Source of the DNA: Gemmatimonadaceae bacterium
Lineage (GTDB): Bacteria > Gemmatimonadota > Gemmatimonadetes > Gemmatimonadales > Gemmatimonadaceae
Length of the DNA stretch: 64,000 bases
Direction: 5' to 3'
NCBI GenBank assembly: GCA_036273715.1
Contig: DASUHB010000066.1
Span: forward strand, 62,001 to 126,000
The notes beneath the pieces were generated by a model. It saw only the letters and a list, made by a program, of their open reading frames with translations. It was not told the DNA's origin and searched no databases. Below are positions 19,964 to 62,304 of this stretch, one piece after another; position 1 is the stretch's first letter, and the number at the start of each line of letters is the position of its first letter. The position numbers and the translations under genes were made by a program.

Positions 19964-21658
19964 ATGACCACCATCCGAGATGCGGCCGACCTGAGTCGCG
20001 ACGAGCACGCCGAGCTGGAACGCCTGCGCGCGGAAGTCGCTGCGTGGCGCGCCCGGTTCGACGCCGACCGCAAGCGCGACCTGGCGTTCACCAATTCCGG
20101 CGGCGACGTCGATCCGCTCTACACCGCGCTCGACACCGCGAGCCTCGATCCCGCGGCGCTCGGCACGCCGGGCACGTATCCGTTCACACGCGGCATCCAT
20201 CCGACCGGATACCGCGGCCGCCTCTGGACCATGCGCCAGTTTGCCGGGTTCGGCAGCGCGCGCGACACCAACGAACGCTACAAGTATCTGCTCGCGCACG
20301 GACAGACGGGCCTGTCGGTCGCGTTCGATTTCCCGACGCTCATGGGCTACGACTCCGACCATCCACGGTCGGAGGGCGAGGTGGGGAAGTGCGGCGTCGC
20401 CATCTCGAGCGTCGCCGACATGGAGACGTTGTTCGACGGCATTCCGTTAGACCAGGTGTCCGTCTCCATGACCATCAATGGTCCGGCGATCATTCTCTAT
20501 TGCTTCCTGATCGCCGCCGCCGAGCGGCACGGGGTTCCATCGGAAAAGCTGCGGGGGACCATCCAGAACGACATCCTGAAAGAGTACATGGCCCAGCACG
20601 CGTGGATCTATCCGATCGAGCCCGCGCTGCGTCTGATCGTCGATGGATTCGAGTGGTCCGCCAAGCACGCGCCGCAATGGAACACGATCTCGATCTCGGG
20701 CTACCACATTCGCGAGGCCGGGGCGACGGCGGTCCAGGAGCTGGCCTTCACGCTCGCCGACGGATTCACCTACGTGGAGCGCGGCCTCGCGCGCGGCCTG
20801 GACATCGATGACTTTGCTCCCCGCCTCTCGTTCTTCTGGGACATCCACAACGATTTCTTCGAGGAGATTGCGAAACTGCGGGCGGCGCGGCGCATCTGGG
20901 CGCGGCACATGCGCGACCGCTACCGGGCGCGCAACCCGCGTTCGTGGATGATGCGCTTCCACTCGCAAACCGCCGGCGTCACGCTCACGGCGCAGCAGCC
21001 GATGAACAACATCGTGCGCGTCGCGTATCAGGCGTTGGCCGCCGTGCTCGGCGGTACGCAGTCGTTGCACACCAACTCGATGGATGAAACACTGGCGCTG
21101 CCCACGGAGGAGTCGGTGCAGGTGGCGCTGCGCACGCAGCAGGTCCTGGCCTACGAAACCGGCGTGCCCAACGTGATCGACCCCTTGGGCGGCTCGTACT
21201 ACATCGAAAGCCTAACGGAAAGCATGGAGCGCGACGCCGAGGCGCTGTTCGAAGACATCGCGCGCGCCGGCGGCGTGGTACGCGCCCTCGAATCGGGGTG
21301 GCTGCAGCGCAAGATCGCCCAGTCCTCGGCGCGCCAGCAGTGGGAGCTCGAGCAGCACCGCAAGCTGGTCGTCGGCGTCAACGAATTCGTGACCGACGAG
21401 CCCGAGTTGACGATTCCCTTGCTCCGCATCGGCGCCGACGCCGAGGAAGATCAGCGGGCACGACTCAGAGCGCTGCGCGCGAACCGCGACGCCGCAAAGT
21501 GCACCGCCGCGCTCGCCGCGCTCCGCGATGCTGCGCGCACTTCGGCCAACCTGATCCCGCTCATCCTCGACGCCGCCCGCGCGGACGCCACGCTGTACGA
21601 GATTCGCGCCGCCATGGAAGAGGTGTTCGGCGCGTATCGGGAGCCGGTGTTCTTTTAA
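19964..21658 (+). CDS. icmA: B12-dependent acyl-CoA mutase large subunit, isobutyryl-CoA mutase-like
   Basis: The 564-aa protein is a methylmalonyl-CoA mutase family catalytic subunit without a B12 domain, matching the size of IcmA (about 566 aa) rather than full MCM (about 700). In MCM the residues Tyr89 and Arg207 (P. shermanii numbering) select methylmalonyl-CoA; isobutyryl-CoA mutase has Phe and Gln. Here the aligned residues are Phe93 (TMRQFAGFG) and Gln211 ([10 protein letters not shown]), with the same spacing of 118. The separate 136-aa B12 subunit is at 23373. It probably interconverts isobutyryl-CoA and n-butyryl-CoA. GAGG-type ribosome site upstream. A simple MCM annotation is the alternative. 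Confidence 0.8.
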
Positions 21659-22063
21659 GGCGGACGAGGCGGACAGGGCCGGACAAAAAGCGGAGACAGC
21701 GGTAAGGCGGAAAGGGCGGACAAGGCCGGATAGAAAGCGGAGACAGCGGTAAGTCGGACGAAACCGGCGGTGTCCGTCGTCAGCCTTCTTCCATGATCTC
21801 GCCCCGGATCCGATCTCGCCTCATGCGTGGGGTCCCGCCCTTCGTTATCCGGCTTTGTCCGGCGAAGTCCGGTTCTGTCCGCCTGTCGCTTTTTTGGGGG
21901 TCCGACCCTGCACATTCCGGTTCTCGGCCCGGATCCGATCTCCCCTCCCAAGTCCCGCATTGTCCGGCGACGTCCGGTCTTGTCCGCCTGACGGTTTTCG
22001 GTCCGACCCTGCGCATTGTTCGGCGGGCAGGGCCGTCAACCGATCGCCACAGGAGGATGGACA
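21659..22063. repeat. Intergenic repeat region: 47-nt tandem pair and two longer direct repeats
   Basis: The icmA stop codon runs straight into two tandem 47-nt units (21658-21704 and 21705-21751, 41 of 47 identical) rich in GGCGGACA and GCCGGACA. Downstream, two related blocks (about 21854-21916 and 21959-22019) repeat GTCCGGCGA.GTCCGG, TTGTCCGCCTG and GGTCCGACCCTGC; each is linked to CGGATCCGATCTC. The second set is inverse in sense to the first (GGACAGGGCCGGACA versus TGTCCGG...TGTCCGCC), so the whole region could fold. No coding gene is seen. The secreted-protein ribosome site is at 22051-22056. Confidence 0.7.
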
Positions 22064-23197
22064 ATGCGAGCCACCCGGATTTCACGGTGGGCGGCCGTCG
22101 CCGCCTTTGTCACCGCGCCCGCGCTGCACGCGCAAGGCGCACCCCCAGCACAACCCGCTGCGGCTCCGGCAGCCGCGCCTGCAGCCGCGCAGGCAACGCA
22201 ACCGCCTAACGTCTGCGGCAGCACGCCCAACTGCGTCGAGACGAACGATTTTGCGGCCGTGATCACGAACTTCCGGACGAGTGATCTGCGCGGCTACAAG
22301 ATGATCGATGTCGTGATGCATTTTCAGAACAAGACGGCGAACTCTCTCGTCCTCGCCTACCTGACCAACTCCGGCACCATCATCGATGACAAGGGCAACC
22401 GCTACGTGGTGTACGGCCCGAACGGTGTGCGCGGCATCGGGCAGGTCTACGGCGGCAGCTTCGACCCGAAATTCACGCTCAATGCAGGCGGGAGCGGCGA
22501 CGCGCAGTTCGAGCTGGCGTGGTATCCGGGACAGCAGATCTACGGATTCAGCTTCTCGTTCGACCTCACGATCGACGAGATCAACTCCTATCAGGGCGGC
22601 CAGCACTCGTTAGGCGGCGAGTTTCCGCTCCACTTCCAGAACCTGGCCAACGGCGTCTCGAGCGGCGGACAGCTTGCGTCCGTGGCCGGTGCGGCCGGCG
22701 CTGCCGCGGGCGGCACGGGCAGCGCGGGCGGCGCGGCCGGCCAGCCCTGCGCGGGCGGCGCGGCAGGAACGGCCACGCAGGTGGCGAATGCGACCGGGTC
22801 GCAGGCAGTCCAGGGAGCGGCGGCGCAGGGTGCGGCGACCGTCTCACAGGCAGCGACTGCGGTGCAGAACCTGACGTCGATCTTCAGCAAGAAAAAGAAT
22901 CAGCCGGCCAAGCAGGCAAACCCGTGCGGTGCTGCGGGCGGCACGGTGACGCAGGCGTCGACGGGAAGCGTTGCGCCTGCGGCTGGAACCACGCCGGCGA
23001 CGCCGTCCGCGAGCAAAGCGACGACGACCGCCAGTCCGGCGGCCATGAAGGCGGGTGGCGTTCGTCCCGGCACGACGCCGACCGTTACACCGCCCAAGGC
23101 GACGACCACGCCGGCAACGACGACCACGCCGGTCAAGCCGACGCCGAGGACTGGCACCAAGAAGACGGTCACGCCGGACACGACGAAGCACCCGTAG
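22064..23197 (+). CDS. Secreted protein of unknown function with low-complexity tail
   Basis: The 377-aa protein starts at an ATG 7 nt after a perfect AGGAGG. A signal peptide ([24 protein letters not shown]) is followed by an Ala/Pro stretch, then a plausible folded domain at about 45-200 ([49 protein letters not shown]). After about residue 205 the sequence is Gly/Ala-rich and ends in a Thr/Pro/Lys tail ([15 protein letters not shown]). I do not recognise the domain. It separates the large and small mutase subunit genes; nothing suggests a functional link. Confidence 0.6.
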
Positions 23198-23221
23198 CAC
23201 TCGACGTTTCGATGACGCGCA

Positions 23222-23252
23222 ACGCCGCGGGCTCGCCAAGAGTCCGCGGCGT
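23222..23252 (+). terminator. Candidate hairpin terminator
   Basis: A perfect 9-bp stem (ACGCCGCGG paired with CCGCGGCGT) closes a 13-nt loop 25 nt after the secreted-protein stop codon. There is no T tract, so termination would be weak or factor-assisted. Confidence 0.4.
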
Positions 23253-23279
23253 GTGTGCATCAGGCGATTGCGGAACGCC

Positions 23280-23308
23280 TTGGCGCTCTCATGGGACGTC
23301 GATAGAAT
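23280..23308 (+). promoter_or_regulatory. Candidate sigma-70 promoter for the icmB operon
   Basis: TTGGCG at 23280-23285 and TAGAAT at 23303-23308 are separated by 17 nt and lie about 65 nt upstream of the icmB start, just after the hairpin. Spacing and -10 box fit a housekeeping promoter. Confidence 0.4.
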
Positions 23309-23372
23309 TACGCAGCCGTGTATCGCGGCGCTTTCCTCGTTTTTCCGTCCCAACGGACGCTACTTTTCGCAC

Positions 23373-23783
23373 ATGCGACCCATTCGGGTGCTCATAGCCA
23401 AGCCCGGTCTCGATGGCCACGACCGCGGCGCCAAAGTCGTTGCGGCGGCGCTTCGCGATTCGGGCATGGAAGTGATCTATACTGGTCTCCATCAGACGCC
23501 GGAAATGATCGCCAACGCGGCGGTGCAGGAGGATGTGGATGTGGTCGGATTGTCGATCTTGAGCGGCGCGCACATGACGCTCTTTCCGCGCGTGCGAGAG
23601 CTGCTCCGTAAGGCAGGACGCGACGACATTCTGATCACCGGCGGCGGGATCATTCCGAAAGAAGACATCGACGCGCTGCGCGAGCAGGGCGTCGGGCAGC
23701 TCTTCGGACCGGGAACGCCGACGACGGCGCTGGTGGATTACATCAAGGCGTGGTTCGCCGAGCGCGAGCAGCAGGAAGCGTGA
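23373..23783 (+). CDS. icmB: B12-binding small subunit of acyl-CoA mutase
   Basis: The 136-aa protein consists of one cobalamin-binding domain. It carries the base-off/His-on motif DGHDRGAK (DxHxxG), then the SILSGAHM and [11 protein letters not shown] blocks that complete the signature. Its length equals that reported for IcmB of Streptomyces, and the large subunit at 19964 lacks exactly this domain. The ATG at 23373 precedes the first strand ([18 protein letters not shown]). Its stop overlaps the GTG start of the carboxylase subunit, placing it in the carboxylase/AtuA operon rather than next to icmA. Confidence 0.9.
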
Positions 23784-25399
23784 CCGCGACGCCACGACTG
23801 CGCGAGTTGTCGACCGACTTGCGCGCGCTCGAAGAGCGTCTTCGGTTAGGCGGCGGCGCCGACAAGATCGAGCGCCAGCACCGGCAGGGCAAGCTCACCG
23901 CCCGCGAGCGCATCGCGCTGCTGTGCGACCCCGGCGCGCGGTTTCTCGAGGTGGGACTGCTCGTCGCCTACGACCAATACGACGGCCAGGCGCCGGGCGC
24001 CGGCGTCGTGACCGGCGTCGGCATCGTCGAGGGGCGCGAAGTGGTGGTCGTCGCCAACGACGCGACGGTGAAAGCCGGGTCGTGGTGGCCCGAAACGATC
24101 CGCAAGATGCTTCGCGCCCAGGAAATCGCGATGCGCTGCCGCATCCCGATCATCTACCTGGTCGACTCCGCCGGCGTGAATCTGCCGTATCAGGGCGGCG
24201 TGTTCCCCGGGCAATACGGCGCGAGCCGGATCTTCTACTACAACTCGGTCATGCGGCGCTACCTGCGAATTCCGCAGCTCGCCGCAGTAATGGGACCCTG
24301 CATCGCGGGCGGCGCCTACCTGCCGGCGCTCTCCGACGTGATCCTGATGGTGGAAGGCACGTCGTTCATGGGGTTGGGTGGTCCGAATCTGGTCAAGGGC
24401 GCCACCGGACAGGTGGTGGACGGCGAGTCGTTAGGCGGCGCCCACACCCACACCGAGATTTCCGGCGTGGCGCACTACGTCGTCAAGAACGACGAGCGCT
24501 GCGTCGAGAAGTTGCGCGCGCTCGTGTCGCGCCTTCCCCGGCCCGTTAGGCGGGGGGTGCAGGATGGGGCGCCGCCCGCGACGGCCCCCGATGCGCTGTA
24601 CGACCTGCTGCCGCAGGACCACCGCATGTCGTACGAGATGCACGAGGTGCTGCGCGCGATCGTCGACCGCGGCGAGCTGGACGAATTCCAGAGCGGCCGC
24701 GCCAAGGAAATGATCTGCGGCGACGCCGCCATCGACGGCATGCCGGTGGGCGTCATCGCCAACCATCGCGGGCTGATCAAAGGACGCCAGGGCGAGCGCC
24801 CGCGCTTCGGCGGCATCATCTACACCGAAAGTGCGGAGAAGGTGGCCTACTTCATCGACCGCTGCGACCGCGAGCGCATGCCGCTGCTGTTCGTGCAGGA
24901 CGTCTCGGGTTTCATGGTCGGTCCCGAGGCCGAGCACGGCGGCATCATCCGCGCGGGCGCGCAATTCGTCGAGGCGATGGCGACGGCCACGGTGCCCAAG
25001 CTCGTTCTCACGATCAATCATGCATCCGGCGCGGGATACTACGCGATGGCAGGGCAGGGGTTCGACCCGGATTTCATCTTCACGTGGCCCACTGGGCGGA
25101 TGGGTGTGATGGAAGGCGAATCGGCAGTGCAGGCCGTGCACGGGCCAGCGCTCGACGTGGCGCGCCGCGCAAACAAACAACCCGATCCCGACCTGGCCGC
25201 GGCGGTCGATGCGATGCGGGCGGACTACGATCACCAGCTGGATGCGCGTTATGCCGCGGCTCGCGGATACGTGGACGCAGTGATCTATCCCGAAGAGACG
25301 CGCGACGTTCTGGCAATGGCGCTGCGCAGTTCCCTCAACAATCCCGGGCCGCACCTCGGCGCGTTCGTGCTGCCGCCGCATCTCGGAGAACACGCATGA
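23780..25399 (+). CDS. Acyl-CoA carboxylase carboxyltransferase (beta) subunit
   Basis: The 539-aa protein has the two crotonase-fold halves of biotin-dependent carboxyltransferases. Visible blocks are [63 protein letters not shown] and in the second half [13 protein letters not shown] and [11 protein letters not shown]. Length and motifs fit the methylcrotonyl-/geranyl-CoA carboxylase beta group (LiuB/AtuC) better than propionyl-CoA carboxylase. The biotin carboxylase (alpha) partner is not in the window. GTG start overlaps icmB; stop overlaps atuA. Confidence 0.85.
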
Positions 25400-26760
25400 C
25401 ACGCGTCGTGCGCGTTGCGAGCGGCCAGGGATTCTGGGGCGACTGGTTGGAGGCGCCTCGCCGCCAGGCCGATGGCGGACCGATCGACTACCTCATGCTC
25501 GACTATCTGGCCGAGGTGACGATGTCGATCCTGCAGAAGCAGAAGGAGCGGGATCCATCGTTAGGCTACGCGCGCGATTTCATCGGCGCCATGGAGAGCG
25601 TATTCGCCGCCGTCGCCCAACGGGGCGTGCGCGTGGTCGCGAACGCCGGCGGCGTGAACCCGGTGGCCTGCGCCGCCGCGGTCCGCGAGGCGGCGCGACG
25701 CGCCGGCGTGTCGGAGCAGATCCGCATCGGCATCGTCACCGGCGACGACTTGCTGCCTCGCATCGACGCACTGCTGGCCGAGGGCCACGCGCTCGCCAAC
25801 ATGGAGACAGGCGAACCGCTCTCGACCATCCGCGACCGCGTGCTGTCGGCGAACGCCTACCTTGGCGCACCGCCGATCGTCGACGCGCTGGGGCGCGGCG
25901 CCAACGTCGTCGTCACCGGGCGGTCGACCGACACGGCGCTCACCATGGCGCCCCTCCTTTACGAGTTCGGCTGGCGTCTCGATGACTGGGACAAGCTCGC
26001 TGCGGGCATCGTCGCCGGACACATCGTCGAGTGCGGCGCGCAGTGCTCGGGCGGCAACTGCCTGTACGACTGGCGCACGATTCCCGACCTCGCGAACATC
26101 GGCTACCCGATCGTCGAGGGGCACGAGGACGGCAGCTTCGTGATCTACAAGCATCCGAACACCGGCGGCCGCATCGATGTGCACAGCGTCAGCGAGCAGC
26201 TGGTGTACGAGATGGGCGATCCGCACTCGTACATCACGCCCGACGTCATCGCCGACTTCACGACGATCCATCTCGAGCGCGCGGGGGCGGATCGCGTGCG
26301 CGTGTTCGGCATCCGCGGCCGGCCGCCCACCGACAAGCTCAAGGTATCGATCGCCTATCGCGCCGGGTTCAAGGCGTTAGGCACCCTCGTGTACGCGTGG
26401 CCCGACGCGCTCGAGAAGGCGCGCCTTTCCGACCGCGTGCTGCGCGAGCGTCTCGACCGGCTCGGCCTGGCGTTCGACGCGGTGCACACCGAATTCCTCG
26501 GCGCGTCGGCGACGCACGGCGCGCTGGCCGGACCCGCGGGCGACGTGCCCGAGGTCCAGCTGCGCATCGGCGTGCGCGGGCCCGACCGGAAGGCGGTCGA
26601 ACGGTTCACCCGCGAAATCGCTCCGTTAGTCCTGAACGGACCGCCCAGCGTCACCGGGTTTGCCGGCGGCCGGCCGAAAACCGAAGAGGTGGTGGCGTAC
26701 TGGCCGGCCCTCGTCGACAAGCGCGTCGTGACGCCGGCGGTCACCATGGATGAGCCATGA
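25396..26760 (+). CDS. atuA: AtuA-like DUF1446 protein, N-terminal module
   Basis: The 454-aa protein matches the DUF1446 part of AtuA: GQGFWGDWLEAP, YLMLDYLAEVTMSIL, NAGGVNPVACA, GRGANVVVTGRSTDTALTMAPL, VECGAQCSGGN and the CxxGN-type motif. AtuA is required for acyclic terpene (citronellol/geraniol) use in Pseudomonas, but its reaction is not known to me. In Pseudomonas the protein has a further C-terminal domain; here that domain is the next gene. ATGA overlaps join the carboxylase, this gene and the next. Confidence 0.83.
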   Translation: MTRVVRVASGQGFWGDWLEAPRRQADGGPIDYLMLDYLAEVTMSILQKQKERDPSLGYARDFIGAMESVFAAVAQRGVRVVANAGGVNPVACAAAVREAARRAGVSEQIRIGIVTGDDLLPRIDALLAEGHALANMETGEPLSTIRDRVLSANAYLGAPPIVDALGRGANVVVTGRSTDTALTMAPLLYEFGWRLDDWDKLAAGIVAGHIVECGAQCSGGNCLYDWRTIPDLANIGYPIVEGHEDGSFVIYKHPNTGGRIDVHSVSEQLVYEMGDPHSYITPDVIADFTTIHLERAGADRVRVFGIRGRPPTDKLKVSIAYRAGFKALGTLVYAWPDALEKARLSDRVLRERLDRLGLAFDAVHTEFLGASATHGALAGPAGDVPEVQLRIGVRGPDRKAVERFTREIAPLVLNGPPSVTGFAGGRPKTEEVVAYWPALVDKRVVTPAVTMDEP

Positions 26761-46141: not shown

Positions 46142-47023
46142 TCACCGCGCGGGCAACAACCGCTGCGCGTTCGTTTCCAGCGCCGCGCGCTTGACCCGCT
46201 CTGCCAACGGCAACGCCAGAAACTGGTCGACGTTCTTCTTCATGCTCTCCACGCCGGGACTCGGCCAATCCGTCCCCCAGAGCAGCTGGGACCCGAGCTC
46301 CTCGATCCGCGGGAAATACTCGAGCAACGAACGCGGCGGAATGCCCGACAGGTCGAGCCACACGTGCTTGTGCCGGCGCAGAATGAAGAACGCCTCCTTC
46401 ATGTACAGCGGCCGGCCGCCGTGCGCCATGATCAATCGCAGATCCGGAAAATCGATCGCCACATCGTCGAGCTCCATCGGGTTCCCGTACTTGCTGCGCG
46501 CGCCCGGGAAGATGCTCGTGCCCGTGTGCACCAGCACCGGCAGCCCGCGATCTTCACACGTCTTGTAAATGGTCGCGAGCGCATCGAGCCCGCGCGTGTA
46601 ATCGTTGGCCGCGAACGCCTGGTGCGGCGGGTGCAGCTTGAGCACGCGCGTGCCTAACTCGAGCAGCCGGGCCACGCCGCCGGCGGCGTCGCGGGTGGTG
46701 ACGGGATCCACGCCGCCGTACGGCAGCAGCCGCGACGGATCGGCCTGCGCGTAGCGTGCGGCGAAGTCATTCGTGTCGTCGCCGAATCCCATGATGTTGG
46801 GACTCGGATAATTCACCATGCCCACCCGCTGGATGCCCTGCTCGTCCATGATCGAGAGCAGCAACCGCGGATCATCCATCAAGGCGAGCAGAAACTCGAA
46901 GTGCTGCTCCTTCCCGCGCCGCATCGTCTCCATTACCGCCGGCTTGAGCTGCCGCCACGGCTGGATGTGGATGTGGAAATCGGTGACGACGTACCGCTGG
47001 TCGGTCGCGGCGGCGCCGCTCAT
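46142..47023 (-). CDS. Amidohydrolase (ACMSD/Amidohydro_2 family)
   Basis: The 293-aa protein has the TIM-barrel hydrolase pattern: VTDFHIHIQPW (HxH), RVLKLHPPHQAF, VLVHTGTS, LRLIMAHGGRPLYMKEAFF and LLWGTDWPSPG with the metal-binding Asp. Similar proteins are decarboxylases or hydrolases of ring-derived acids. It is the last gene of the catabolic cluster and overlaps the hydratase gene by 4 nt, so it may act on a pathway intermediate (inference). Confidence 0.8.
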   Translation of the reverse strand: MSGAAATDQRYVVTDFHIHIQPWRQLKPAVMETMRRGKEQHFEFLLALMDDPRLLLSIMDEQGIQRVGMVNYPSPNIMGFGDDTNDFAARYAQADPSRLLPYGGVDPVTTRDAAGGVARLLELGTRVLKLHPPHQAFAANDYTRGLDALATIYKTCEDRGLPVLVHTGTSIFPGARSKYGNPMELDDVAIDFPDLRLIMAHGGRPLYMKEAFFILRRHKHVWLDLSGIPPRSLLEYFPRIEELGSQLLWGTDWPSPGVESMKKNVDQFLALPLAERVKRAALETNAQRLLPAR

Positions 47024-47802
47024 TTCCCGGTGAACTGCGCGGCGCGCTTCTCCAGAAACGCGCGCACACCTTCGGCGCGGTCGTCGCTCGCGAAGCACAG
47101 CTGGAACAGCGCGGTCTCGAGCTTGAGCCCATCGTCCAACGGAAGATTGAGCGCGGCACGTGTGGCTTCCTTTGCCGCCGCCACGGCCACGGGACTTTTG
47201 GCCGCGATGGTCTCGGCGAGCGCCAGCGCGCGGTCGAGCAGGGCACTGGGGTCGAGCACTTCGTTCACCAAGCCTAACCGGAGCGCCTCGTCGGCGCCGA
47301 TCATCTCGCCGGTCAGAATCATCTTGAGCGCCGCGCCTAACCCGACGATGCGCGGCAGGCGTTGGGTGCCGCCGCCGCCGGGAATGATGCCCAGATTCAC
47401 CTCGGGCTGCCCGAACCGCGCCGACGCACTCGCGATGCGAATGTCGCAGGAGAGCGCGAGCTCCATGCCGCCGCCCAGGCAGTAGCCGTTGACGGCGGCG
47501 ATCACCGGCGTGGGGCAGCGCTCGATCGCGTCGAAGATCGTCGGGCCCTTCATGACACGCCATTGCTCGACCGTCGTGCGCTCTTCGAATTCGCTGATGT
47601 CGGCGCCGGCCACGAAAGCCTTGTCGCCCGCGCCCGTCACGACGATCGCGCGCACCGCGTCGTTCGCCCGCGCCGCCGCGATCGCGTCGAGAAACTCGGA
47701 CCGCACCTGGCGGTCGAGCGCGTTGCGCTTTTCCGGGCGGTTGATCGTGATCAGCATTGCCCGCCCGCGCACTTCGTGTATCACCACGCCGCCGTCGCTC
47801 AT
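47020..47802 (-). CDS. paaF: Enoyl-CoA hydratase (two-Glu crotonase)
   Basis: The 260-aa protein has both catalytic glutamates (CLGGGMELALSCDIRIAS and FGQPEVNLGIIPGGGGTQRL), the oxyanion-hole FVAGADISEF and the C-terminal ECH motif. It hydrates 2-enoyl-CoA, the PaaF/FadB-type step before the hydroxyacyl-CoA dehydrogenase encoded just upstream. ATG at 47802 chosen for the ATGA overlap with that gene; a GTG 15 nt earlier is possible. The gene symbol is by pathway analogy. Confidence 0.85.
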   Translation of the reverse strand: MSDGGVVIHEVRGRAMLITINRPEKRNALDRQVRSEFLDAIAAARANDAVRAIVVTGAGDKAFVAGADISEFEERTTVEQWRVMKGPTIFDAIERCPTPVIAAVNGYCLGGGMELALSCDIRIASASARFGQPEVNLGIIPGGGGTQRLPRIVGLGAALKMILTGEMIGADEALRLGLVNEVLDPSALLDRALALAETIAAKSPVAVAAAKEATRAALNLPLDDGLKLETALFQLCFASDDRAEGVRAFLEKRAAQFTGK

Positions 47803-48656
47803 CCCGTCGTCTCCCACGTGTAGAACCCCTGGCCCGTCTTTTTGCCTAACTCGCCGCGCGCCACCTTGTCGCGCAAGAGCGCCGGCGGCCGATACGTGTC
47901 ATCGCGCAGCGTCTCGTACAGGTGCTCGGCGATCGCCAGCCGCACGTCGAGTCCCACGATGTCCGTCAGGCGGAGCGGACCCATGGGATGATTGTAGCCC
48001 AGCTCCATGGCCCGGTCGATGTCGGCGGCCGAGGCGACGCCCTGCTCGAGCATGCGGATCGCTTCGAGCCCCAGGACGACGCCCAACCGGCTGGTCGCGA
48101 ACCCCGGTGTGTCGCGAACGACGATCGCCTCCTTGCCGAGGAGCGATGCGAACGCGCGCGCCCGCGCCACCGCGTCCGCGCTCGTCGCGTGGCCGCTGAC
48201 GATCTCGAGCAGCTTCATCACCGGCACCGGATTGAAGAAGTGCATGCCCAACGCGCGCTCCGGATGGCGGAGCGGGCCGGCGATCGCCGAGATCGACAGC
48301 GACGATGTATTGCTGGCCAGCAGCGTGTCGTCCGCGACGACGCGCTCCAGCCGCGCGAACAGCTCCTGCTTGAGCACGATGCGTTCGGGGATGGCCTCGA
48401 TGACGATGGTTGCGTCGGCGGCGCATTCCTCGGGCGTCGGCGCGGTCGCGAGCCGCACCAGGGCCGCGTCCCGCTCGGCGGCCGTGCACTTGCCCTTGTC
48501 GATCGCCTTGTCGAAGGCCCGGCCGATCGCCTGGACGGCGCGCGCCAGCTCTTCGGCGCTGACGTCTGTTAGGCATACGCGGCAGCCGGCGAGCGCGGCC
48601 ACGTAGGCAATGCCGTGGCCCATCGTGCCCGCGCCGATGACGGCAACGACCGGCAT
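47799..48656 (-). CDS. paaH: 3-hydroxyacyl-CoA dehydrogenase
   Basis: The 285-aa protein has the NAD-binding N-terminus (VVAVIGAGTMGHGIAYVAALAG), the SNTSSLSI block, catalytic His in MHFFNPVPVMKLLEIV and the C-terminal NHPMGPLRLTDIVGLD. It matches short 3-hydroxybutyryl-/adipyl-CoA dehydrogenases. In phenylacetate and benzoate pathways this step (PaaH) oxidises 3-hydroxyadipyl-CoA; its neighbours favour that role, but a butyrate-type role cannot be excluded. Confidence 0.87.
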   Translation of the reverse strand: MPVVAVIGAGTMGHGIAYVAALAGCRVCLTDVSAEELARAVQAIGRAFDKAIDKGKCTAAERDAALVRLATAPTPEECAADATIVIEAIPERIVLKQELFARLERVVADDTLLASNTSSLSISAIAGPLRHPERALGMHFFNPVPVMKLLEIVSGHATSADAVARARAFASLLGKEAIVVRDTPGFATSRLGVVLGLEAIRMLEQGVASAADIDRAMELGYNHPMGPLRLTDIVGLDVRLAIAEHLYETLRDDTYRPPALLRDKVARGELGKKTGQGFYTWETTG

Positions 48657-48664
48657 GGTGCGCG

Positions 48665-49429
48665 TCACGACGACAGCGCCGCCGGCCGCAGGACCTGCTG
48701 CAGGAGGGGAAGATGATCCGTACACAGGCCGTCCACGCCTAACGCAGCCAGCGCGGCCGCCGGCTCGGTCCGGTTCACCGTCCAGGCGATCACGCGCCCG
48801 CCGGCGCCGTGCACCGCCGCCACCAGCCCGGCATCGATGAGATCCCACCGCGGCCACGCGTCGAGCGCGTCGGCGGCACGCATCGCCGCCGGTACGTCGC
48901 CCAGCGCACGGTCGAACAGGATCCCCCCGCGAATCTCCGGCGCGATCGCATGGGCCCGCCGCACCGCCTCGTGGTCGAAGCTGTGCACCGCGCATCGGCC
49001 CGGGGAAGGCGATTTCCGTATCGCGTCGACCGCGGCCGCTTCCACGCCCGCGCCTTTGAGCTCGATGAACACGTCGGCGCGCCCGCGCACCGCCGCCAAC
49101 ACTTCGGCAAGCGTCGGGATGAGCGCCATGCCGCGCACCGAAAAGCCCTGCAGCTCATCGAACGTCAGCGCATCGATGCGCTTTCCCGTTAGGCGGCCGC
49201 TCGGCGCCGCCGCGCGGGGCACCTCGTCGTGGTGGACCACCACCACGCCGTCTTTCGTGGCGTGCACATCGAGCTCGATGCCGTCCGCGCCCAGCTCGAG
49301 CGCGCGCATGAACGACGGCAGCGTGTTCTCCGGCCGCTCCCGCGGCGCGCCGCGGTGCCCGATGAGCAGGGGACCCGGCCGGCGCGCCGGCCCCGCGCCC
49401 GGCCCCAGTTCACTTGCGTTAGTCGTCAC
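48665..49429 (-). CDS. Glycerophosphodiester phosphodiesterase
   Basis: The 254-aa protein shows the GDPD motif LIGHRGAPRERPENTLPSF followed by GADGIELDVHATKDGVVVVHHDE, with the Glu/Asp metal ligands and His pair, and the closing TVNRTEPAAALAALGVDGLCTDHL. It splits glycerophosphodiesters to alcohol and glycerol-3-phosphate. No signal peptide, so cytosolic. GTG start overlapping the oxygenase stop by 11 nt, and 8 nt before the dehydrogenase gene; its place in a CoA-thioester catabolic cluster is unexplained. Confidence 0.88.
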   Translation of the reverse strand: MTTNASELGPGAGPARRPGPLLIGHRGAPRERPENTLPSFMRALELGADGIELDVHATKDGVVVVHHDEVPRAAAPSGRLTGKRIDALTFDELQGFSVRGMALIPTLAEVLAAVRGRADVFIELKGAGVEAAAVDAIRKSPSPGRCAVHSFDHEAVRRAHAIAPEIRGGILFDRALGDVPAAMRAADALDAWPRWDLIDAGLVAAVHGAGGRVIAWTVNRTEPAAALAALGVDGLCTDHLPLLQQVLRPAALSS

Positions 49430-50534
49430 TCTTCTTGGGCTGGATCCAGTCGTTCTCCTTGAAGATCGAGCGCAACAGCTCGCGGTCCGCCGCCGTCGGC
49501 ATCACCGATTCCACATACGCCTTGTAACCCTCGCGCGGAATCGGCTCCCCGTCCAGGTTGAACGTCTGCCCTTTGTACTGGCCGATGCGCCGGTTGAACT
49601 TGATGCTCGGCACCTTGAGCTTGGGCTGATGTTCCGGCACGTGCAGGTTCAGCCGGTCGATCAACCCCTGGACCTCCTGCCGGTACAACTCGCGTGCGTA
49701 CTCGTTGAGACGCGCCGGGTCCGGCGACTGCGGGTTCGTCCGCTCGTCGAACCGCCCCTTGAGCCCCCACGTGTACGCCCACTGCGCCGACGACGATCCA
49801 TCGGTGCCGAACAGGTCGAACGCCGTCGATACCCACTTGTTGAAGTAGCGCTGCATGACGTCGGTCGGAATGCGCCCCGCCTTGATGATGCGCAGGAGGC
49901 CGTTGTTGCCCGTGCCTAAATGGAACGACTCCTCGCGCAACATCGGCTTCATCGATCGCGACAGCGGCGCGAACGCCGACGTCGACATCATCTGGAGCTG
50001 GTACTTGCCGTCGCGATCGATGAACTCGGTGTAGGCGAAGAAGTCGAGCCAGTTCTCGACGCTCTCGTTGAACGAGCCTAACAGGCGCTCGTGCTCGTCG
50101 GCGCGGCGCTGGAGCAGCTTTTCGGCTTCGCGCTTGCCCTCATCCCCGAAGTGCGACACGAGCAGATACGACATCTGCCATCCGTGCCGCATCTCCTCCG
50201 CCATCACCCGATAGATCGCGAGCAAATCGTAGTCGCTCGGCGCGTGCTCGAGCAGCGCGCGCTGCTGCTCCACCGACGCGAACTCGGTGTCGCCCTGAAA
50301 GATGATGAGCGTCTGCAGCGCGTCGCGGATGCGCTGATCCGGGATGTGCATCACGGTGGGCCACTTGTGATTGCCGCGGTAGTGGCCGAACTCGATCTCC
50401 GGCACGTCCAGATCGCCGAGCTTCACGTCGAACTTGTAATCCTTGAGCTCCCTGGCCTCGAGACCGATGTCGTCCTGCCAGACCTTGAACAGGTCCACCC
50501 AGTCGTCGAAGTTCGTGATTTTCGTCAACGCCAT
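49419..50534 (-). CDS. BoxB/PaaA-like di-iron CoA-ester oxygenase
   Basis: The 371-aa protein belongs to the phenylacetyl-/benzoyl-CoA epoxidase group. A full set of di-iron ligands can be read: Glu84 (GDTEFAS), Glu114 and His117 (EEMRH), Glu170 (YTEF), Glu202 and His205 (EESFH), with spacings typical of the four-helix bundle. The segment GAFNE-like LLGSFNESVENWLDFF, FNRRIGQYKG and LFGTDGSSSAQ.. resemble BoxB, which epoxidises benzoyl-CoA, but it is about 100 residues shorter than the roughly 470-aa BoxB. No reductase (BoxA/PaaE) or PaaBCD is in the window. GAGGAG precedes the ATG. The substrate is inferred only from neighbours. Confidence 0.78.
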   Translation of the reverse strand: MALTKITNFDDWVDLFKVWQDDIGLEARELKDYKFDVKLGDLDVPEIEFGHYRGNHKWPTVMHIPDQRIRDALQTLIIFQGDTEFASVEQQRALLEHAPSDYDLLAIYRVMAEEMRHGWQMSYLLVSHFGDEGKREAEKLLQRRADEHERLLGSFNESVENWLDFFAYTEFIDRDGKYQLQMMSTSAFAPLSRSMKPMLREESFHLGTGNNGLLRIIKAGRIPTDVMQRYFNKWVSTAFDLFGTDGSSSAQWAYTWGLKGRFDERTNPQSPDPARLNEYARELYRQEVQGLIDRLNLHVPEHQPKLKVPSIKFNRRIGQYKGQTFNLDGEPIPREGYKAYVESVMPTAADRELLRSIFKENDWIQPKKSDD

Positions 50535-50562
50535 GATGTGGTGCTCCTCTGGTGAACTGCCT

Positions 50563-50588
50563 CCGGCCCCTACGCCTACCGGGGCCGG
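50563..50588 (-). terminator. GC-rich hairpin between paaG-like gene and oxygenase gene
   Basis: CCGGCCCC (50563-50570) and GGGGCCGG (50581-50588) form a perfect 8-bp stem around a 10-nt loop within the only sizable gap (58 nt) of the operon. No T run; it may attenuate transcription or protect a processed end. Confidence 0.4.
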
Positions 50589-50592
50589 CGTG

Positions 50593-51393
50593 TCAACGGG
50601 CCGCCGACTGACCGAACGCCGGCCGCCGCTTCTCCAGGAACGCCGTGATGCCTTCCACCGCATCGCCGCTCCGGAAGCACCGGAGCTGCGCGTCCAGCTC
50701 ATAGTCGAGCATCTCGGGCAGCGACCGCTCGAGCGACGCGTACACCGCGCGCTTGGCCATCGCGATGGCCAGGGGCGGCTTGGCGGCGAGCGCCGCCGCC
50801 AGCGCACGCGTCTCGGTGCCTAACGCATCGTGCGGCACCACGCGGTTGAACAGCCCGAGGCGCAGCCCTTCGGCCGCGTCGACCATCTCGGCCAGCCAGA
50901 ACAACTCGAGCGCTTTCGCGGGACCGACCAGTCGCGGCAGGAAGTACGTGCCGCCCCAATCGGGATGCAGGCCGATGCGGTTGAACGTTTGGCCTAACGA
51001 AGCGCGGTCGCTGGCGATGCGGAGGTCGCAGGCCAGGGCGAGGTTGGCGCCGCCGCCCGCCGCCGGACCGTTGATGCTGCCGATCACCGGTTTGGCCGAC
51101 GCCCGCATCGTCAGGACCACGCGCCGGCCGGCTTCGACCAGTGCCGCCATCGCCGCTTCGTCGCGTGCGGCGATGAGCTCGGACATGTAGCCGATGTCGG
51201 CGCCGGCGCAGAACGCACGCCCCGCGCCGGTGAGCACGATCACGCGCACGGCGTCGTCGTCCTCCAGCTCGTCCAACGCATCAGCCACTTCCCGGCGCAT
51301 CGTCCCGGCAAACGCATTCAGTTTGTCGGGGCGGTTGAGGATCAGCGTCCCGATGCCATCCTCGCGCTCGACGCGAATGTGCTCGTAGCTCAT
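50593..51393 (-). CDS. paaG: Enoyl-CoA isomerase/hydratase, PaaG-like
   Basis: The 266-aa crotonase lacks both hydratase glutamates ([31 protein letters not shown]) but keeps the Asp in the LHPDWGG loop. That pattern, with the AGGGANLAL and GLxPDxGGTxxLPR strings, is characteristic of PaaG, the isomerase that converts the ring epoxide of phenylacetyl-CoA to the oxepin and shifts double bonds. ATG overlaps the thiolase stop by 4 nt. It lies directly before the oxygenase gene, as expected for an epoxide-processing partner. Confidence 0.8.
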
Positions 51394-52592
51394 CGCACGC
51401 GCTCCACGACCATCGCGATCCCCTGGCCGACGCCGATGCACATCGTCGCCAGCCCGCGCGCCGCCTCCCGCCGCCGCATCTCGTGCACCAGCGTCGTCAG
51501 CACCCGGGCGCCCGACGCGCCTAACGGATGACCCAACGCAATCGCGCCGCCGTTCACGTTCGTGCGCGCGGGGTCGCATCCAAGCTCACGCATGCACGCC
51601 ACCGACTGCGACGCGAACGCTTCGTTGAGCTCGACCAGATCGATGTCCGACATCCGCAGGCCCGCTCGCGCCAGCGCCTTGCGCGTCGCCGGCACCGGAC
51701 CTAACCCCATCACCTCGGGCGATACCCCGGCCACCGCCGACGCGACGATCCGCGCCATCGGCTGAAGCCCGGCGCGCTGCGCCGCCGGCTCCGACATGAC
51801 GACGAGCGCGCTCGCGCCATCGTTGATCCCGCTCGACGACCCCGCGGTGACGGTGCCGTTCTGTTTCACGAACGCCGGCTTCATGGCCGCGAGACTCTGC
51901 ATCGTCACGTCGGGACGCGGATGTTCGTCGCGGGACACGACGGTCGCGTCACCGCGGCGTCCCGGCGCCGTCACCGGCACGATCTCCTCATCGAAGCGCC
52001 CATCGGCCATCGCGCACGCCGCTCGCCGCTGGCTCTCGACCGCGAACGCATCCTGTTCCTCGCGCGACACGCCGCAGCGCTTCGCCACTTCCTCTGCCGT
52101 CTCGCCTAACGAAATCGTCCACTCGCGCGGCATCTTCGGATTCGTGAACCGCCAGCCGACCGTCGTGTCCGCCGCGACCGGAGCGGAGCGGGGAAATCCT
52201 TCCTCCGGCTTGAGCATGACCCAGGGCGAGCGCGACATGCTCTCGACCCCGCCCGCGACGAACACGTCGCCTTCACCGGCGCGAATCGCCTGCGCCGCGC
52301 TCGCCACCGCCTGCAGGCCGGAACCGCACAAGCGGTTGACCGTCTGCCCCGGAATCTCCACCGGCAACCCCGCCAGTAGCGATGCCATGCGCGCCACATT
52401 CCGGTTGTCCTCGCCGGCCTGGTTCGCGCAGCCCAGAATGACGTCGTCGATGCTCGACGGCGCGATGCCGGTGCGTTCGACGAGCGCGCGAATCACGCCC
52501 GCCGCCAGATCGTCCGGCCTGACGCGTGCGAGCGCGCCGCCATGACGGCCGATCGGCGTCCGGAGCGCGGCGACGATCACCGGAGCACTCAC
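51390..52592 (-). CDS. paaJ: Acetyl-CoA acyltransferase (thiolase)
   Basis: The 400-aa thiolase has the acyl-enzyme Cys in [16 protein letters not shown], the His in [16 protein letters not shown] and the second Cys in [12 protein letters not shown]. It matches the 3-oxoadipyl-CoA/acetyl-CoA thiolase group (PaaJ/PcaF). It would perform the last step, releasing acetyl-CoA and succinyl-CoA or an equivalent. GTG start overlapping the aldehyde dehydrogenase stop by 4 nt. Confidence 0.87.
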
Positions 52593-54052
52593 GAGAGATC
52601 CACCCACACCGACTTCACCTGCGTGTATCCGTCGAGCGCGTACGATCCCAGCTCCCGTCCGAATCCCGACTGCTTGTAGCCGCCGAACGGCGAGCCGGCG
52701 TCGTACATGTTGTACGTGTTCACCCACACCGTGCCCGCGCGCACCGCCCGCGCCGTGCGCAGCGCCTTCTTGATGTCGCGCGTCCAGATGCCGGCGGCGA
52801 GGCCGTAGATCGTGTCGTTGGCTAACGGAATCGCGCCATCCATTCCGCCCCGGAACGTCATCATCGCCAGCACCGGGCCGAAGATCTCTTCCCGCGCGAT
52901 GGTCATGCCGGGATCCACGTCGCCGAAGATCGTCGGCGCAACGAAATAGCCTTTCCCGTTCACCGGCACCCGCTCGCCGCCCGTGAGCAGCGTCGCGCCT
53001 TCCTTGCGGCCGCTCTCGATGTAGCCGAGGACGCGCTCCATCTGGGCCCTGGAGACGATTGCGCCTAACCGGGTCTTGGGGTTGAGCGGATCGCCGGCCA
53101 CCATTTTCCTGGCGCGCTCGAGCATCTTGCCGCGCAGCGCGTCCTCGATCTCGGCTTCCACGAGCAGGCGCGAGCCCGCGGCGCAGACCTCTCCCTTGCC
53201 GTAGAAAATACCGGTGAGCGCGCCGCGCGCCGCCGCATCCAGATCGGCATCGGCGTACACGATGTTCGGCGACTTCCCGCCCAACTCCATCGACATCTTC
53301 TTCACCGTGCCGGCCGCAGCGCGCATGATCTCCTTGCCCACCTCGGTCGAGCCCGTGAACGCGATCTTGTCCACGCCCTCGTGCTGTACCAACGCCATGC
53401 CGGCCACGCGACCCGGCCCCGGCACGCAGTTGAACGCGCCCGCCGGGAACCCGGCCTCGAGCGCCAGCTCGGCCATGCGCAGCGCGGTGAACGGCGTCTC
53501 CTCCGACGGCTTGAGCACGATCGTGTTCCCGCACGCGAGCGCCGGCCCGATCTTCCACGCCGCGAGCGACATCGGGAAGTTCCACGGCACGATGGCGCCG
53601 ATCACGCCTAACGGCTCGCGCAGCGTGTAATTGAGGAACGGCCCGTCCACGGGGATCGTCTCCCCATACACCTTGTCCGCCCACCCGCCGTAATACATGA
53701 ACGTCTCGGCTGTTAGGCGAAGATCGATCGCGCTTTCGAAGATGGGTTTCCCGTTGTTGAGCGTCTCGAGGCGCGCCAGCTCGTCCTTGTGGGCCAGACA
53801 GAGCTCGCCTAACCGATACAGCATCTGCCCGCGCCCCCGCGCCGACAGGCTGCGCCAGGCGTCGCTCTCGAACGTGCGCCGCGCCGACTCCACCGCGCGA
53901 TGCACGTCGTCCACGCCGGCCTCGGCGACGTGCGCAATCGTCGCTTCCGTCGCCGGGTTCACCACCCCGAACGATTTGCCCGAGGATGCCTCCACCGGCT
54001 CACCGTGAATGATGAGCCGCGTGGGGAACCGCTCCGTTTCCACTGCCGTCAT
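52589..54052 (-). CDS. NAD(P)-dependent aldehyde dehydrogenase
   Basis: The 487-aa protein has the ALDH features [44 protein letters not shown], the Glu of [12 protein letters not shown] and the catalytic Cys in [11 protein letters not shown], and EEIFGPVLA. In the box pathway a stand-alone ALDH (BoxD) oxidises the ring-cleaved semialdehyde; in paa pathways it is the PaaZ fusion with a MaoC hydratase. Here there is no MaoC domain. Its exact substrate is unknown; position suggests a ring-cleavage semialdehyde. Confidence 0.85.
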
Positions 54053-54061
54053 CGCCGGCGC

Positions 54062-54877
54062 CTACTTGCCCTTGAACGTCGGCTGCCGCTTCTCGACGTA
54101 CGACCCGATGCCTTCCTTCGCGTCGAGACTCTTGAACAACAGGCTCTGCAGCTCGCGCTCCATCGCCAGCCCATACTCGAGCGGGACCTCGGCGCCCGAC
54201 TGCACCGACCGCTTGATGTGCCCGACCGCCATCGCCGCCTTGTTGGGCAGACAGAACTGCCGCGCGTACAGCAGCACGCTTTCCCACCAGTTGTCCTTCG
54301 GATACACCTCGTTCACGATGCCTAACGTCTGCGCTTCCTCGAACGAGAACGTCCGCCCCGTCACCATGAGCTCGATCGACTTCGCCTTGCCGACCAACCG
54401 CGCCAGCCGCTGCGTGCCGCCCGTGCCCGGAAGCACGCCCAGGTTCACCTCGGGCAGCCCGATCTTGCCGGCGTCCTGTTTGGCCAACCGAATGTCGCAC
54501 GCCATCGCGATCTCGAGACCGCCGCCCACGCAGTGCCCGTTGATCGCCGCGATCACGAGCTTGGGCGTCTGCTCGAGGCGGCTCAACGTCTCGTTCGCGT
54601 GCAGACAGAAGTAGTACTTGAACGTCGGATCCATCTCGTTGAGCATGTTGATGTTCGCGCCCGCCGAGAAGAACTTGTTGCCCGCACCGCGAAGAATGAT
54701 CACCTGCACGGTGTTGTCGAACCGCGCCCTCAGAATGCATTCGTCCAACTGCCGCATCATCTCGTGCGTGTACGTGTTGGCCGGCGGATCGTTCAGCTCG
54801 ATGATCGCGATGTTGCCATCCTGGCTGTACGTGACCAGCGTCGCCGACTCGCGGTCAGTTACTGTGGCGGTAGCCAT
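54062..54877 (-). CDS. Enoyl-CoA hydratase/isomerase family protein
   Basis: The 271-aa crotonase has both catalytic glutamates (CVGGGLEIAMACDIRLA and GLPEVNLGVLPGTGGTQRLA) and an oxyanion motif FFSAGANINML. Compared with fatty-acid ECHs it has an insert around residues 80-100 (MDPTFKYYFCLHANETLSR) and an unusual late region (NWWESVLLYARQFCLPNKAAMAV). It is the first structural gene after tetR, 9 nt before the aldehyde dehydrogenase gene, so a ring-acid role is likely. Confidence 0.82.
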   Translation of the reverse strand: MATATVTDRESATLVTYSQDGNIAIIELNDPPANTYTHEMMRQLDECILRARFDNTVQVIILRGAGNKFFSAGANINMLNEMDPTFKYYFCLHANETLSRLEQTPKLVIAAINGHCVGGGLEIAMACDIRLAKQDAGKIGLPEVNLGVLPGTGGTQRLARLVGKAKSIELMVTGRTFSFEEAQTLGIVNEVYPKDNWWESVLLYARQFCLPNKAAMAVGHIKRSVQSGAEVPLEYGLAMERELQSLLFKSLDAKEGIGSYVEKRQPTFKGK

Positions 54878-54942
54878 CGATCAACCTCGGGTGTAAAGAG
54901 TCCATGGTATTGTCGCGCACCGGCTGTGGAACGCGACCAGTG

Positions 54943-55566
54943 TCATCCCGCCGACGACCGGGGCAGCGCGGCATCGGACACCGGCAGCCCCACGTATCCA
55001 CCCAGGAACAGGTGGCAGATGTTCTGACTCAGCATCTCGACGCCGACATCACCCAACGGATCGTACCAGTTGTAAATCCAGTTCATCATCCCGAAGAGCG
55101 AATACGCCGCCACGCGCCGATTCAGGTGCGCCGGTCCGTGCGCGCGCTCGACGTCGGCCAGCACATCCATGAGCGCCCGCGTGTACTGGCGCTTCATCTC
55201 GTTCACCTTCTGCAAATAGTCGCCCGACAACGCGCCGGCCTCGTGCGACAACACCTTCATCTCCGCCATATGCGCGACGAAGTAGTCGAGATGGTTGTCG
55301 ATGAACCGGCCGATGCGCTCGATCGGATCGGTCACGCCGTGGAGCGAGGCGCGCATCCCGGCAAGCACCGCCTCGAAGTTGCGGCTCTGGATGAGGTAGA
55401 GCAGTTCTTCCTTGCTCTGGACGTAGTAGTACACGCCCGCCAGCGACACGCCCGACGCACGGGCCAGGTCCCGCATGCTCGTTTCATGGTAGCCCCGCTC
55501 GGCGAACACCTTTGCCGCGGCGGAGAGGAGCGAGTCGAGCTTCTGATCCCGGGTCGGTCCAGCCAT
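54943..55566 (-). CDS. TetR-family transcriptional regulator
   Basis: The 207-aa protein has a TetR HTH at the N-terminus (LLSAAAKVFAERGYHETSMRDLARASGVSLAGVYYYVQSKEELLYLI) and a C-terminal ligand domain. It heads the catabolic cluster and is separated from the next gene by 65 nt. A perfect palindrome lies 22-33 nt upstream of its start, in the divergent gap with the ECF sigma gene. Like PaaR/FadR-type regulators it may sense a CoA ester; that is inferred from context. Confidence 0.85.
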   Translation of the reverse strand: MAGPTRDQKLDSLLSAAAKVFAERGYHETSMRDLARASGVSLAGVYYYVQSKEELLYLIQSRNFEAVLAGMRASLHGVTDPIERIGRFIDNHLDYFVAHMAEMKVLSHEAGALSGDYLQKVNEMKRQYTRALMDVLADVERAHGPAHLNRRVAAYSLFGMMNWIYNWYDPLGDVGVEMLSQNICHLFLGGYVGLPVSDAALPRSSAG

Positions 55567-61236: not shown

Positions 61237-62304
61237 TCAGCGGGGTTTCGCCCGCAGATATTGCGGCGGCCACCGCACCTCCTGGCCGAGCTCGCGCGCG
61301 GCATCGAGGGGCCAGTGCGGGTGGCGCAACAGCTCGCGCGCCATCACCACCAGATCCGCCTGGCCCGAGCGCACGATCGTATCGGCCTGCGCCGCACCCG
61401 TGATGAAGCCCACCACCGCCGTTCGGACACCGGACTCCCGCCGGATCCGCTCCGCGAATCCAACGTGGTAGCCCGGGCCGGTGGGAATCTGCACATGCGG
61501 CACGACGCCGCCTGAGCTGCAGTCGATGGCATCGACGCCCGATTCGCCTAACCGGCGAGCCAGCGCGATCGACTCGTCGACCGTCCAGCCGTCGTCGCGC
61601 CAGTCCGTCACCGACAGCCGCGTTAGAAGCGGCAAGCGCTCCGGCCATACCTCGCGCACGCCCGCCGCCACCTCGAGCGTGAGGCGGATCCGATTCTCGA
61701 ACGAGCCGCCGTAGCTGTCGGTGCGCACGTTCGATAACGGCGATAGAAATTGGTGCAGCAGGTATCCGTGCGCCGCGTGCAGCTCCAGCGCGTCCATGCC
61801 GGCTGCCAGCGCGCGTGCGGCCGCCTCGCGAAACGCCGACACGATGCGCGCGATCCCGCGGGTGTCCAACGCATCCGGCGTCTGATACTTCTCGGCAAAG
61901 GGCAGCGCGCTCGGCGCCGTGAGATGCGTCCAGCCTCCCGCATCGACACCCACCGGCCCGCCGTCTTCCCAGGGCCGGCCGGTGCTCGCCTTGCGACCCG
62001 CGTGCGCCAGCTGCATCCCGAACACCGCGCCCTGCGATTTTACGAACCGCCCGATGCGCGCCAGCATCTCCACGTGTGCGTCATCCCAGATACCGAGGTC
62101 CTGCGGACTGATGCGCCCGTCCCGGGTGACGGCGGTGGCTTCCGTTAGGACCATGGATGCGCCGCCCGACGCAAACTGGCCGAGGTGCACGAGGTGCCAG
62201 TCCGTCGCCAAGCCGTCGGTGCTCGAGTACTGGCACATGGGCGAGACGACGATCCGATTGCGCAGCGCGACGCCGCGCAGCGTCAGTGGGGCAAAGAGAG
62301 ACAT
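61237..62304 (-). CDS. namA: NADPH dehydrogenase NamA-like (old yellow enzyme family)
   Basis: The 355-aa flavoenzyme matches YqjM/NamA: NRIVVSPMCQYSSTDGLATDWH with the regulatory Cys and Tyr, QLAHAGRKASTGRPW, ELHAAHGYLLHQFLSPLSN (active-site HxxH) and R-SGQADLVVMARELLRHPHWP at the end. It reduces activated alkenes, nitro compounds or quinones with NADPH. It is convergent with the SPFH gene (18 nt) and alone on its strand with the DUF3052 gene. Confidence 0.92.
   Translation of the reverse strand: MSLFAPLTLRGVALRNRIVVSPMCQYSSTDGLATDWHLVHLGQFASGGASMVLTEATAVTRDGRISPQDLGIWDDAHVEMLARIGRFVKSQGAVFGMQLAHAGRKASTGRPWEDGGPVGVDAGGWTHLTAPSALPFAEKYQTPDALDTRGIARIVSAFREAAARALAAGMDALELHAAHGYLLHQFLSPLSNVRTDSYGGSFENRIRLTLEVAAGVREVWPERLPLLTRLSVTDWRDDGWTVDESIALARRLGESGVDAIDCSSGGVVPHVQIPTGPGYHVGFAERIRRESGVRTAVVGFITGAAQADTIVRSGQADLVVMARELLRHPHWPLDAARELGQEVRWPPQYLRAKPR

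Follow-up and report, generated by a model that had tools for sequence, protein, structure and literature searches.

The window analysed here is a stretch of 64,000 nucleotides from a soil-type Gemmatimonadaceae bacterium (GenBank assembly GCA_036273715.1, contig DASUHB010000066.1, forward-strand positions 62,001 to 126,000), and positions given below are those of the window unless another locus is named. Ten minus-strand genes run from 46142 to 55566, most of them overlapping or separated by a few bases, and from this spacing we infer that they form one transcript (Table 1). The genes are named after their best NCBIfam matches; among the rows listed for them, the general thiolase model TIGR01930 was the only one whose curated cut-off was passed. 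PaaC-like, PaaB-like and reductase genes were looked for in the operon and none was seen. Elsewhere in the window, a gene run at 19964-26760, judged by eye, presumably encodes a methylmalonyl-CoA mutase, a carboxyltransferase and an acyclic-terpene-utilisation-like protein.

Table 1. Genes of the operon, in order of transcription, and features at related loci (the latter in the numbering of each locus)
Feature	Position	Strand	Remarks
TetR-type regulator, operon head	54943..55566	-	
Single-domain crotonase, candidate ring-opening enzyme	54062..54877	-	BoxC-like Cys91/Glu122/Glu143
Aldehyde dehydrogenase with a putative BoxD- or PaaZ-like role	52589..54052	-	
Thiolase, best match 3-oxoadipyl-CoA thiolase	51390..52592	-	PRK09050 560.9 bits, pcaF 552.2, both under cut-off
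PaaG-like enoyl-CoA isomerase/hydratase	50593..51393	-	Start inferred from family match
Compact BoxB-like di-iron epoxidase, 371 aa (P0001)	49419..50534	-	Frame, BoxB match, predicted model, ligands
Glycerophosphodiester phosphodiesterase-like gene	48665..49429	-	Start overlaps end of epoxidase gene by 11 bases
3-Hydroxyacyl-CoA dehydrogenase	47799..48656	-	Start inferred
PaaF-like enoyl-CoA hydratase	47020..47817	-	
Amidohydrolase-type gene, co-conserved with epoxidase	46142..47023	-	Start inferred
NuoE-bearing loci: L061, L066, L068, L069, L070, L076, L077, L079, L081			
GlpC-like protein, L063	1733-3265		
GlpC-like protein, L073	2300-3571		
GlpC-like protein, L075	5052-6320		

The original prediction placed a BoxB-like oxygenase gene at 49419-50534, and we observed there an uninterrupted minus-strand frame of 371 codons; the plus-strand reading of the same segment is interrupted by stops. 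The product, here called compact BoxB, passed the PF05138 cut-off (51.6 vs 28.5 bits), and its closest solved relative is indeed BoxB (E 6.7e-55). With the BoxB profile TIGR03225 it scored 236.3 bits, far under the cut-off of 499.1, and with the PaaA profile TIGR02156 only 39.8 bits, under the cut-off of 280. It is about 40% identical to BoxB and, close to the shortfall of about 100 residues first estimated, has 104 amino acids fewer than the annotated 475-residue protein, from which it differs in missing N-terminal and loop segments and in a shorter C-terminus.

An AlphaFold2 model of compact BoxB, for which 47 homologues served as input, had a mean pLDDT of 93.0 and a pTM of 0.91. In a Foldseek search with this model BoxB ranked first (TM 0.89 by query length), and VIA-align superposed it on BoxB 3q1g_D with a Z of 42.3, aligning 362 of 371 residues at 2.2 Å. 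Other folds gave a Z of 25 (PDB 4mud) and about 21 (PaaA), and below BoxB, 4mud, PaaA and PaaC the VIA-align list held methane monooxygenase and R2-like oxidases, which are taken as general di-iron relatives. The 4mud entry is SSO1313, a Sulfolobus 'ring oxydation complex / phenylacetic acid degradation-like' protein that shares the core, yet has 223 residues and spans model residues 48-313 only. The superpositions on BoxB and PaaA had been proposed as a check at the outset; a four-helix di-iron core, whose absence would have refuted the original prediction, is predicted and strongly supported by the model, and 'minimal epoxidase', the term then used, is a fair description. As 362 of its 371 residues find a counterpart in BoxB, the compact protein is therefore judged to be a complete BoxB whose loops and ends are shortened, and no fragment. 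We also considered a truncated or degenerate BoxB, which is ruled out by a model that spans the BoxB fold and by ligands that are all invariant. Compact BoxB thus resembles BoxB (TIGR03225; PDB 3per, 3pm5, 3q1g) in its near-full-length fold, its six ligands and its lack of a structural partner subunit, and differs in size and in having no BoxA. With PaaA of the PaaABCE complex it shares the di-iron ligand set and several Paa-like enzymes in the operon, and it differs in a weak profile match, the lower Z, another pocket and a genome without PaaC or PaaE.

The iron ligands of BoxB are Glu120, Glu150, His153, Asp211, Glu240 and His243, as stated in the accessible text of PMC5489048, and their equivalents by alignment are Glu84, Glu114, His117, Asp173, Glu202 and His205 of compact BoxB. 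Each of the six columns was invariant in 81 compact proteins, that is, in the query and in those of 80 loci (the best 80 of 309 relatives). The ligands first proposed, Glu84, Glu114/His117 and Glu202/His205, thus hold; the remaining one, Glu170, does not, its place being taken by Asp173, which aligns with Asp211 of BoxB and was found in 81 of 81, so that six ligands are present. Glu170 is ruled out as an iron ligand by its variable column (E 14, Q 59, S 4, D 3, N 1; n=81), which aligns with a tyrosine or phenylalanine of BoxB.

Seven second-shell residues of BoxB are named for orientation of the benzoyl group in the accessible text of PMC5489048, which gives Phe203 at one point and Phe206 at another; both were entered in our comparison of seven residues. 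Gln116, Thr119, Ser123 and Phe193 of BoxB correspond to Gln80, Thr83, Ser87 and Phe155, present in all 81 compact proteins, and Phe203 to Phe165, present in 78. The other two positions are changed: Phe206 is replaced by Tyr168 throughout (81/81), and Thr210 by Ile (66) or Val (15) at position 172. Five of the seven benzoyl-orienting residues are therefore conserved, and two haloarchaeal PaaA proteins deviate at four of those five; both also carry Ile/Val in the Thr210 column. Since the two changes occur in several phyla in place of the Phe and Thr of BoxB, the substrate could be another aryl-CoA, for example a substituted benzoyl-CoA whose extra group is read by Tyr168 and Ile/Val172, and the linkage of an amidohydrolase-type gene, described below, would suit such a substrate. 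We consider this unlikely, because the five conserved residues, together with the 4-hydroxybenzoyl-CoA reductase and BoxR-type neighbours of relatives (see below), indicate plain benzoyl-CoA.

In the species-genome collection, 309 of 314 candidate stretches encode relatives of compact BoxB. The titles of the best 80 of these 309 name Gemmatimonadota, Acidobacteria, Chloroflexi, Armatimonadetes, Planctomycetota, Binatia, Rokubacteria and Deltaproteobacteria; the records are mostly metagenome bins, and individual assignments may be wrong. The gene is real and conserved, as the occurrence of relatives in nearly all candidate stretches and a shared context at tens of loci go far beyond chance. Compact BoxB is the sole PF05138 match in 38 of 47 carrier genomes, and one further carrier (L055 and L059) has two matches, both of them compact copies. 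A hand count of PF05138 matches in 249 Gemmatimonadota genomes gave exactly one weak match, similar to that of compact BoxB, in 28 and three matches in 7. In a tree, BoxB formed one group (100/100) and the compact proteins did not (2 changes; 0% of bootstrap trees); the root is unsure owing to long branches, and we make no claim as to the ancestral form.

Neighbours were counted at the loci of the best 80 of the 309 relatives, and the counts are lower bounds, since many contigs are short. The most frequent linked gene was the crotonase (at least 51 of 80), followed by the aldehyde dehydrogenase and the PaaG-like gene (at least 49 each) and the thiolase (at least 45). The glycerophosphodiester phosphodiesterase-like gene, for which a metabolic connection is not obvious, was linked at at least 48 of the 80 loci and was not found at those of other phyla. 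The amidohydrolase-type gene was linked at at least 44 of the 80, including an Acidobacteriota locus (L080) at which the homologue has a PF04909 domain; we know of no step in the Box or Paa pathways that requires an amidohydrolase.

The linked crotonase is the top match of the genome to the BoxC profile TIGR03222 (85.1 bits, with 67.4 for the runner-up), at a level below the cut-off of 712.3 bits. In the alignment with an annotated BoxC, its Cys91, Glu122 and Glu143 fall on the catalytic positions Cys111, Glu146 and Glu168, of which Cys111 presumably has a catalytic role of its own; an FC..NET-like motif is a further likeness. The BoxC-type cysteine was present in 45 of 49 orthologous crotonase hits (the others having 2 Ser, 1 Gly and 1 Ala). 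The same loci gave 77 further crotonase hits, and not one of these has the cysteine, 12 of them being gapped there. BoxC consists of two crotonase domains in 556 amino acids, whereas the linked crotonase is a single domain of 271, with one crotonase-type match each to PF00378 and PF16113; the accessible text of PMC4498308 locates the BoxC active centre with its two glutamates in the N-terminal half only. A full BoxC was found over cut-off in 1 of 48 carrier genomes. From these alignments, the linked crotonase is a candidate for the ring-opening enzyme. The likeness may not be specific to BoxC, however: in a PDB search with this protein, ordinary hydratases outscored BoxC. The closest structure was an enoyl-CoA hydratase, 2ppy (2ppy_A), which also has the BoxC-type cysteine and which we take to be from Geobacillus.

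With regard to the substrate, 4-hydroxybenzoyl-CoA reductase genes, whose products would yield benzoyl-CoA, were linked at at least 5 of the best 80 of 309 loci, all of them in Acidobacteriota; the alpha subunit at L080 passed its cut-off (1001.7 vs 994.55 bits), and the beta and gamma subunits scored under theirs. Regulators of the BoxR/BzdR type, in which an HTH is joined to a shikimate-kinase-like domain, are encoded near the epoxidase at three loci: those of L073 and L075 score 269.3 and 310.1 bits against a cut-off of 204, and that of L063 is BoxR/BzdR-like by its domains. BoxR is a repressor of box genes, according to the accessible text of PMC6449761. These benzoyl-CoA neighbours were observed in Acidobacteriota and not in Gemmatimonadota. 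Of 48 carrier genomes, 22 have a benzoate-CoA ligase that scores above its cut-off, as does one of 14 controls, which were unmatched for lineage and lifestyle; in the genome studied here, the best match was 219 bits, under the cut-off of 375.25. For the family as a whole, gene context and alignment favour benzoyl-CoA as the probable substrate; for this genome it is less certain, because the TetR regulator and the PaaG-like gene leave phenylacetate possible. The suggestion that the enzyme has its own substrate was not borne out, as the evidence leans to benzoyl-CoA, though two pocket residues differ throughout the group.

Were phenylacetyl-CoA the substrate, compact BoxB would be a stand-alone epoxidase replacing PaaABC(E). 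The operon would then be of Paa type: it would encode PaaG-, PaaF-, PaaH- and PaaJ-like enzymes, and an aldehyde dehydrogenase and a hydratase, as separate proteins, would substitute for PaaZ. Most Paa enzymes do have counterparts in the operon, but the fold and pocket of the epoxidase are BoxB-like, unlike those of PaaA, and the linked crotonase carries the BoxC cysteine. The frequent linkage of the PaaG-like gene, the status of compact BoxB as sole PF05138 match in most carriers and the PaaA-like Ile/Val172 are likewise as expected for phenylacetate; yet benzoyl-CoA genes adjoin relatives, the best match to phenylacetate-CoA ligase in this genome is 44.9 bits against a cut-off of 646.3, and, in the accessible text of PMC4498308, BoxB reportedly rejects phenylacetyl-CoA. 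We regard this phenylacetate reading as improbable.

BoxB is described as monomeric, with neither a structural nor a PaaC-like subunit, in the accessible text of PMC4498308. The genome has a single PF05138 gene, so the original prediction was right that a partner subunit is missing; this is the usual arrangement, and is expected because BoxB needs none. The electron donor is another matter. In this genome PaaE gave zero matches at E 0.001, and BoxA gave only ferredoxin-sized partial matches (best 31.6 bits); in none of 47 carrier genomes did BoxA exceed its cut-off, and no linked reductase of any type was found in Gemmatimonadota loci. In other phyla, a NuoE-like gene (PF01257) lies beside the epoxidase gene at at least 9 of the best 80 of 309 loci, and a NuoF-like gene (PF01512 and PF10589) at at least 7; a tenth, weak NuoE hit at L055, 5 kb from the epoxidase gene, was left out of the count. 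At eight loci the NuoE-like gene starts no more than about 110 bases from where the epoxidase frame stops, and at L061 the two frames share 4 bases. At L066 the pair is divergent, with a crotonase in between, and at L076 the 2 kb following the NuoE-like gene contain no NuoF hit. The linked pair carries the same domains as NuoE and NuoF of complex I, but the NuoE-like protein is short (107-112 aa) and encoded beside a di-iron oxygenase, and the linked NuoF-like gene scores 335.5 bits with the NuoF profile, under the cut-off of 558.65. On the basis of a NuoF search, a dedicated NuoEF in the genome studied here was rejected, since its two NuoF matches (35-37% identity) sit in other clusters, which by eye are complex I-like (L086) and formate dehydrogenase-like (L087). 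The reductase of its own that was proposed for the enzyme is thus not found linked in its own genome, whereas in other phyla the NuoE/NuoF-like pair could fill that role. We know of no NuoE/NuoF-type reductase that serves a di-iron monooxygenase.

Whatever the substrate, the NuoE/NuoF-like pair could instead be part of an NAD-dependent formate dehydrogenase that clears formate released on ring opening; in the genome studied here, the NuoE/NuoF-containing cluster L087 resembles, by eye, a formate dehydrogenase cluster. We take COG1894 to be the NuoF family. Formate dehydrogenase genes, including COG1894, occur in BoxR regulons and possibly oxidise the formate made by BoxC, as set out in the accessible text of PMC6449761. 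Against this, at the two NuoF-bearing loci inspected gene by gene, NuoF is followed by a crotonase (L061) or by short unrelated frames (L077), with no formate dehydrogenase catalytic subunit seen directly behind it, and the NuoE-like gene is placed tightly against the epoxidase gene, even overlapping it at L061; we find the formate explanation somewhat unlikely. Separately, a GlpC-like iron-sulfur protein, possibly concerned with electron transfer, is encoded near the epoxidase and a BoxR-like regulator at three Acidobacteriota loci (Table 1), and that of L073 passes the PRK11168 cut-off (310.1 vs 278 bits).

The best explanation of these observations, to which we give a probability of roughly 0.6, is that compact BoxB is the benzoyl-CoA 2,3-epoxidase of a pared-down Box pathway, served in some phyla by a NuoEF-type reductase. 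In such a pathway, a reduced carboxylate/histidine di-iron centre would activate O2, and the stand-alone enzyme would epoxidise the ring of an aryl-CoA, most likely converting benzoyl-CoA to 2,3-epoxybenzoyl-CoA. The single-domain crotonase, which shares its active-site positions with the N-terminal half of BoxC, may then open the ring; the semialdehyde so formed would be oxidised by the aldehyde dehydrogenase, and the operon's isomerase, hydratase, dehydrogenase and thiolase would convert the C6 chain into acetyl-CoA and succinyl-CoA. The electron source would be neither BoxA nor PaaE. In Acidobacteriota, Binatota and related 'Deltaproteobacteria', electrons would probably pass from NADH through the NuoE-like [2Fe-2S] protein and the NuoF-like FMN/[4Fe-4S] protein to the epoxidase, and in Gemmatimonadota the donor would be encoded away from the epoxidase locus. 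Counting against benzoyl-CoA are the score with the BoxB profile, Tyr168 and Ile/Val172, the lack of a benzoate-CoA ligase in the genome itself, the lack of a linked reductase in Gemmatimonadota, and a TetR regulator and PaaG-like gene that suit phenylacetate equally well. More tentatively, and at somewhat less than even odds, we propose that several poorly cultured phyla have a pared-down Box pathway in which compact BoxB works with a single-domain crotonase of the BoxC type; in Acidobacteriota and Binatota, a NuoE/NuoF-type NADH module would supply its electrons.

Aerobic epoxidation of benzoyl-CoA is known through BoxA, BoxB and the two-domain BoxC. The experimental Box work covered in the accessible text of PMC10803450 concerns Alpha- and Betaproteobacteria, and that of PMC10581226 mentions benzoyl-CoA degradation genes in some Gemmatimonadota with reference to the anaerobic pathway; in the freely available literature on BoxB or benzoyl-CoA in Gemmatimonadetes or Acidobacteria, we found no description of the compact form. 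A search by the BoxA cut-off misses 47 of 47 carrier genomes, and one by the BoxC cut-off 47 of 48. The operon of compact BoxB seems to swap the usual helper enzymes for simpler ones. If our reading is correct, too little aromatic ring opening has so far been called in Gemmatimonadota, Acidobacteriota and Binatota. In that case the NuoEF-type donor would also give a di-iron oxygenase a new electron path, one that can be tested directly.
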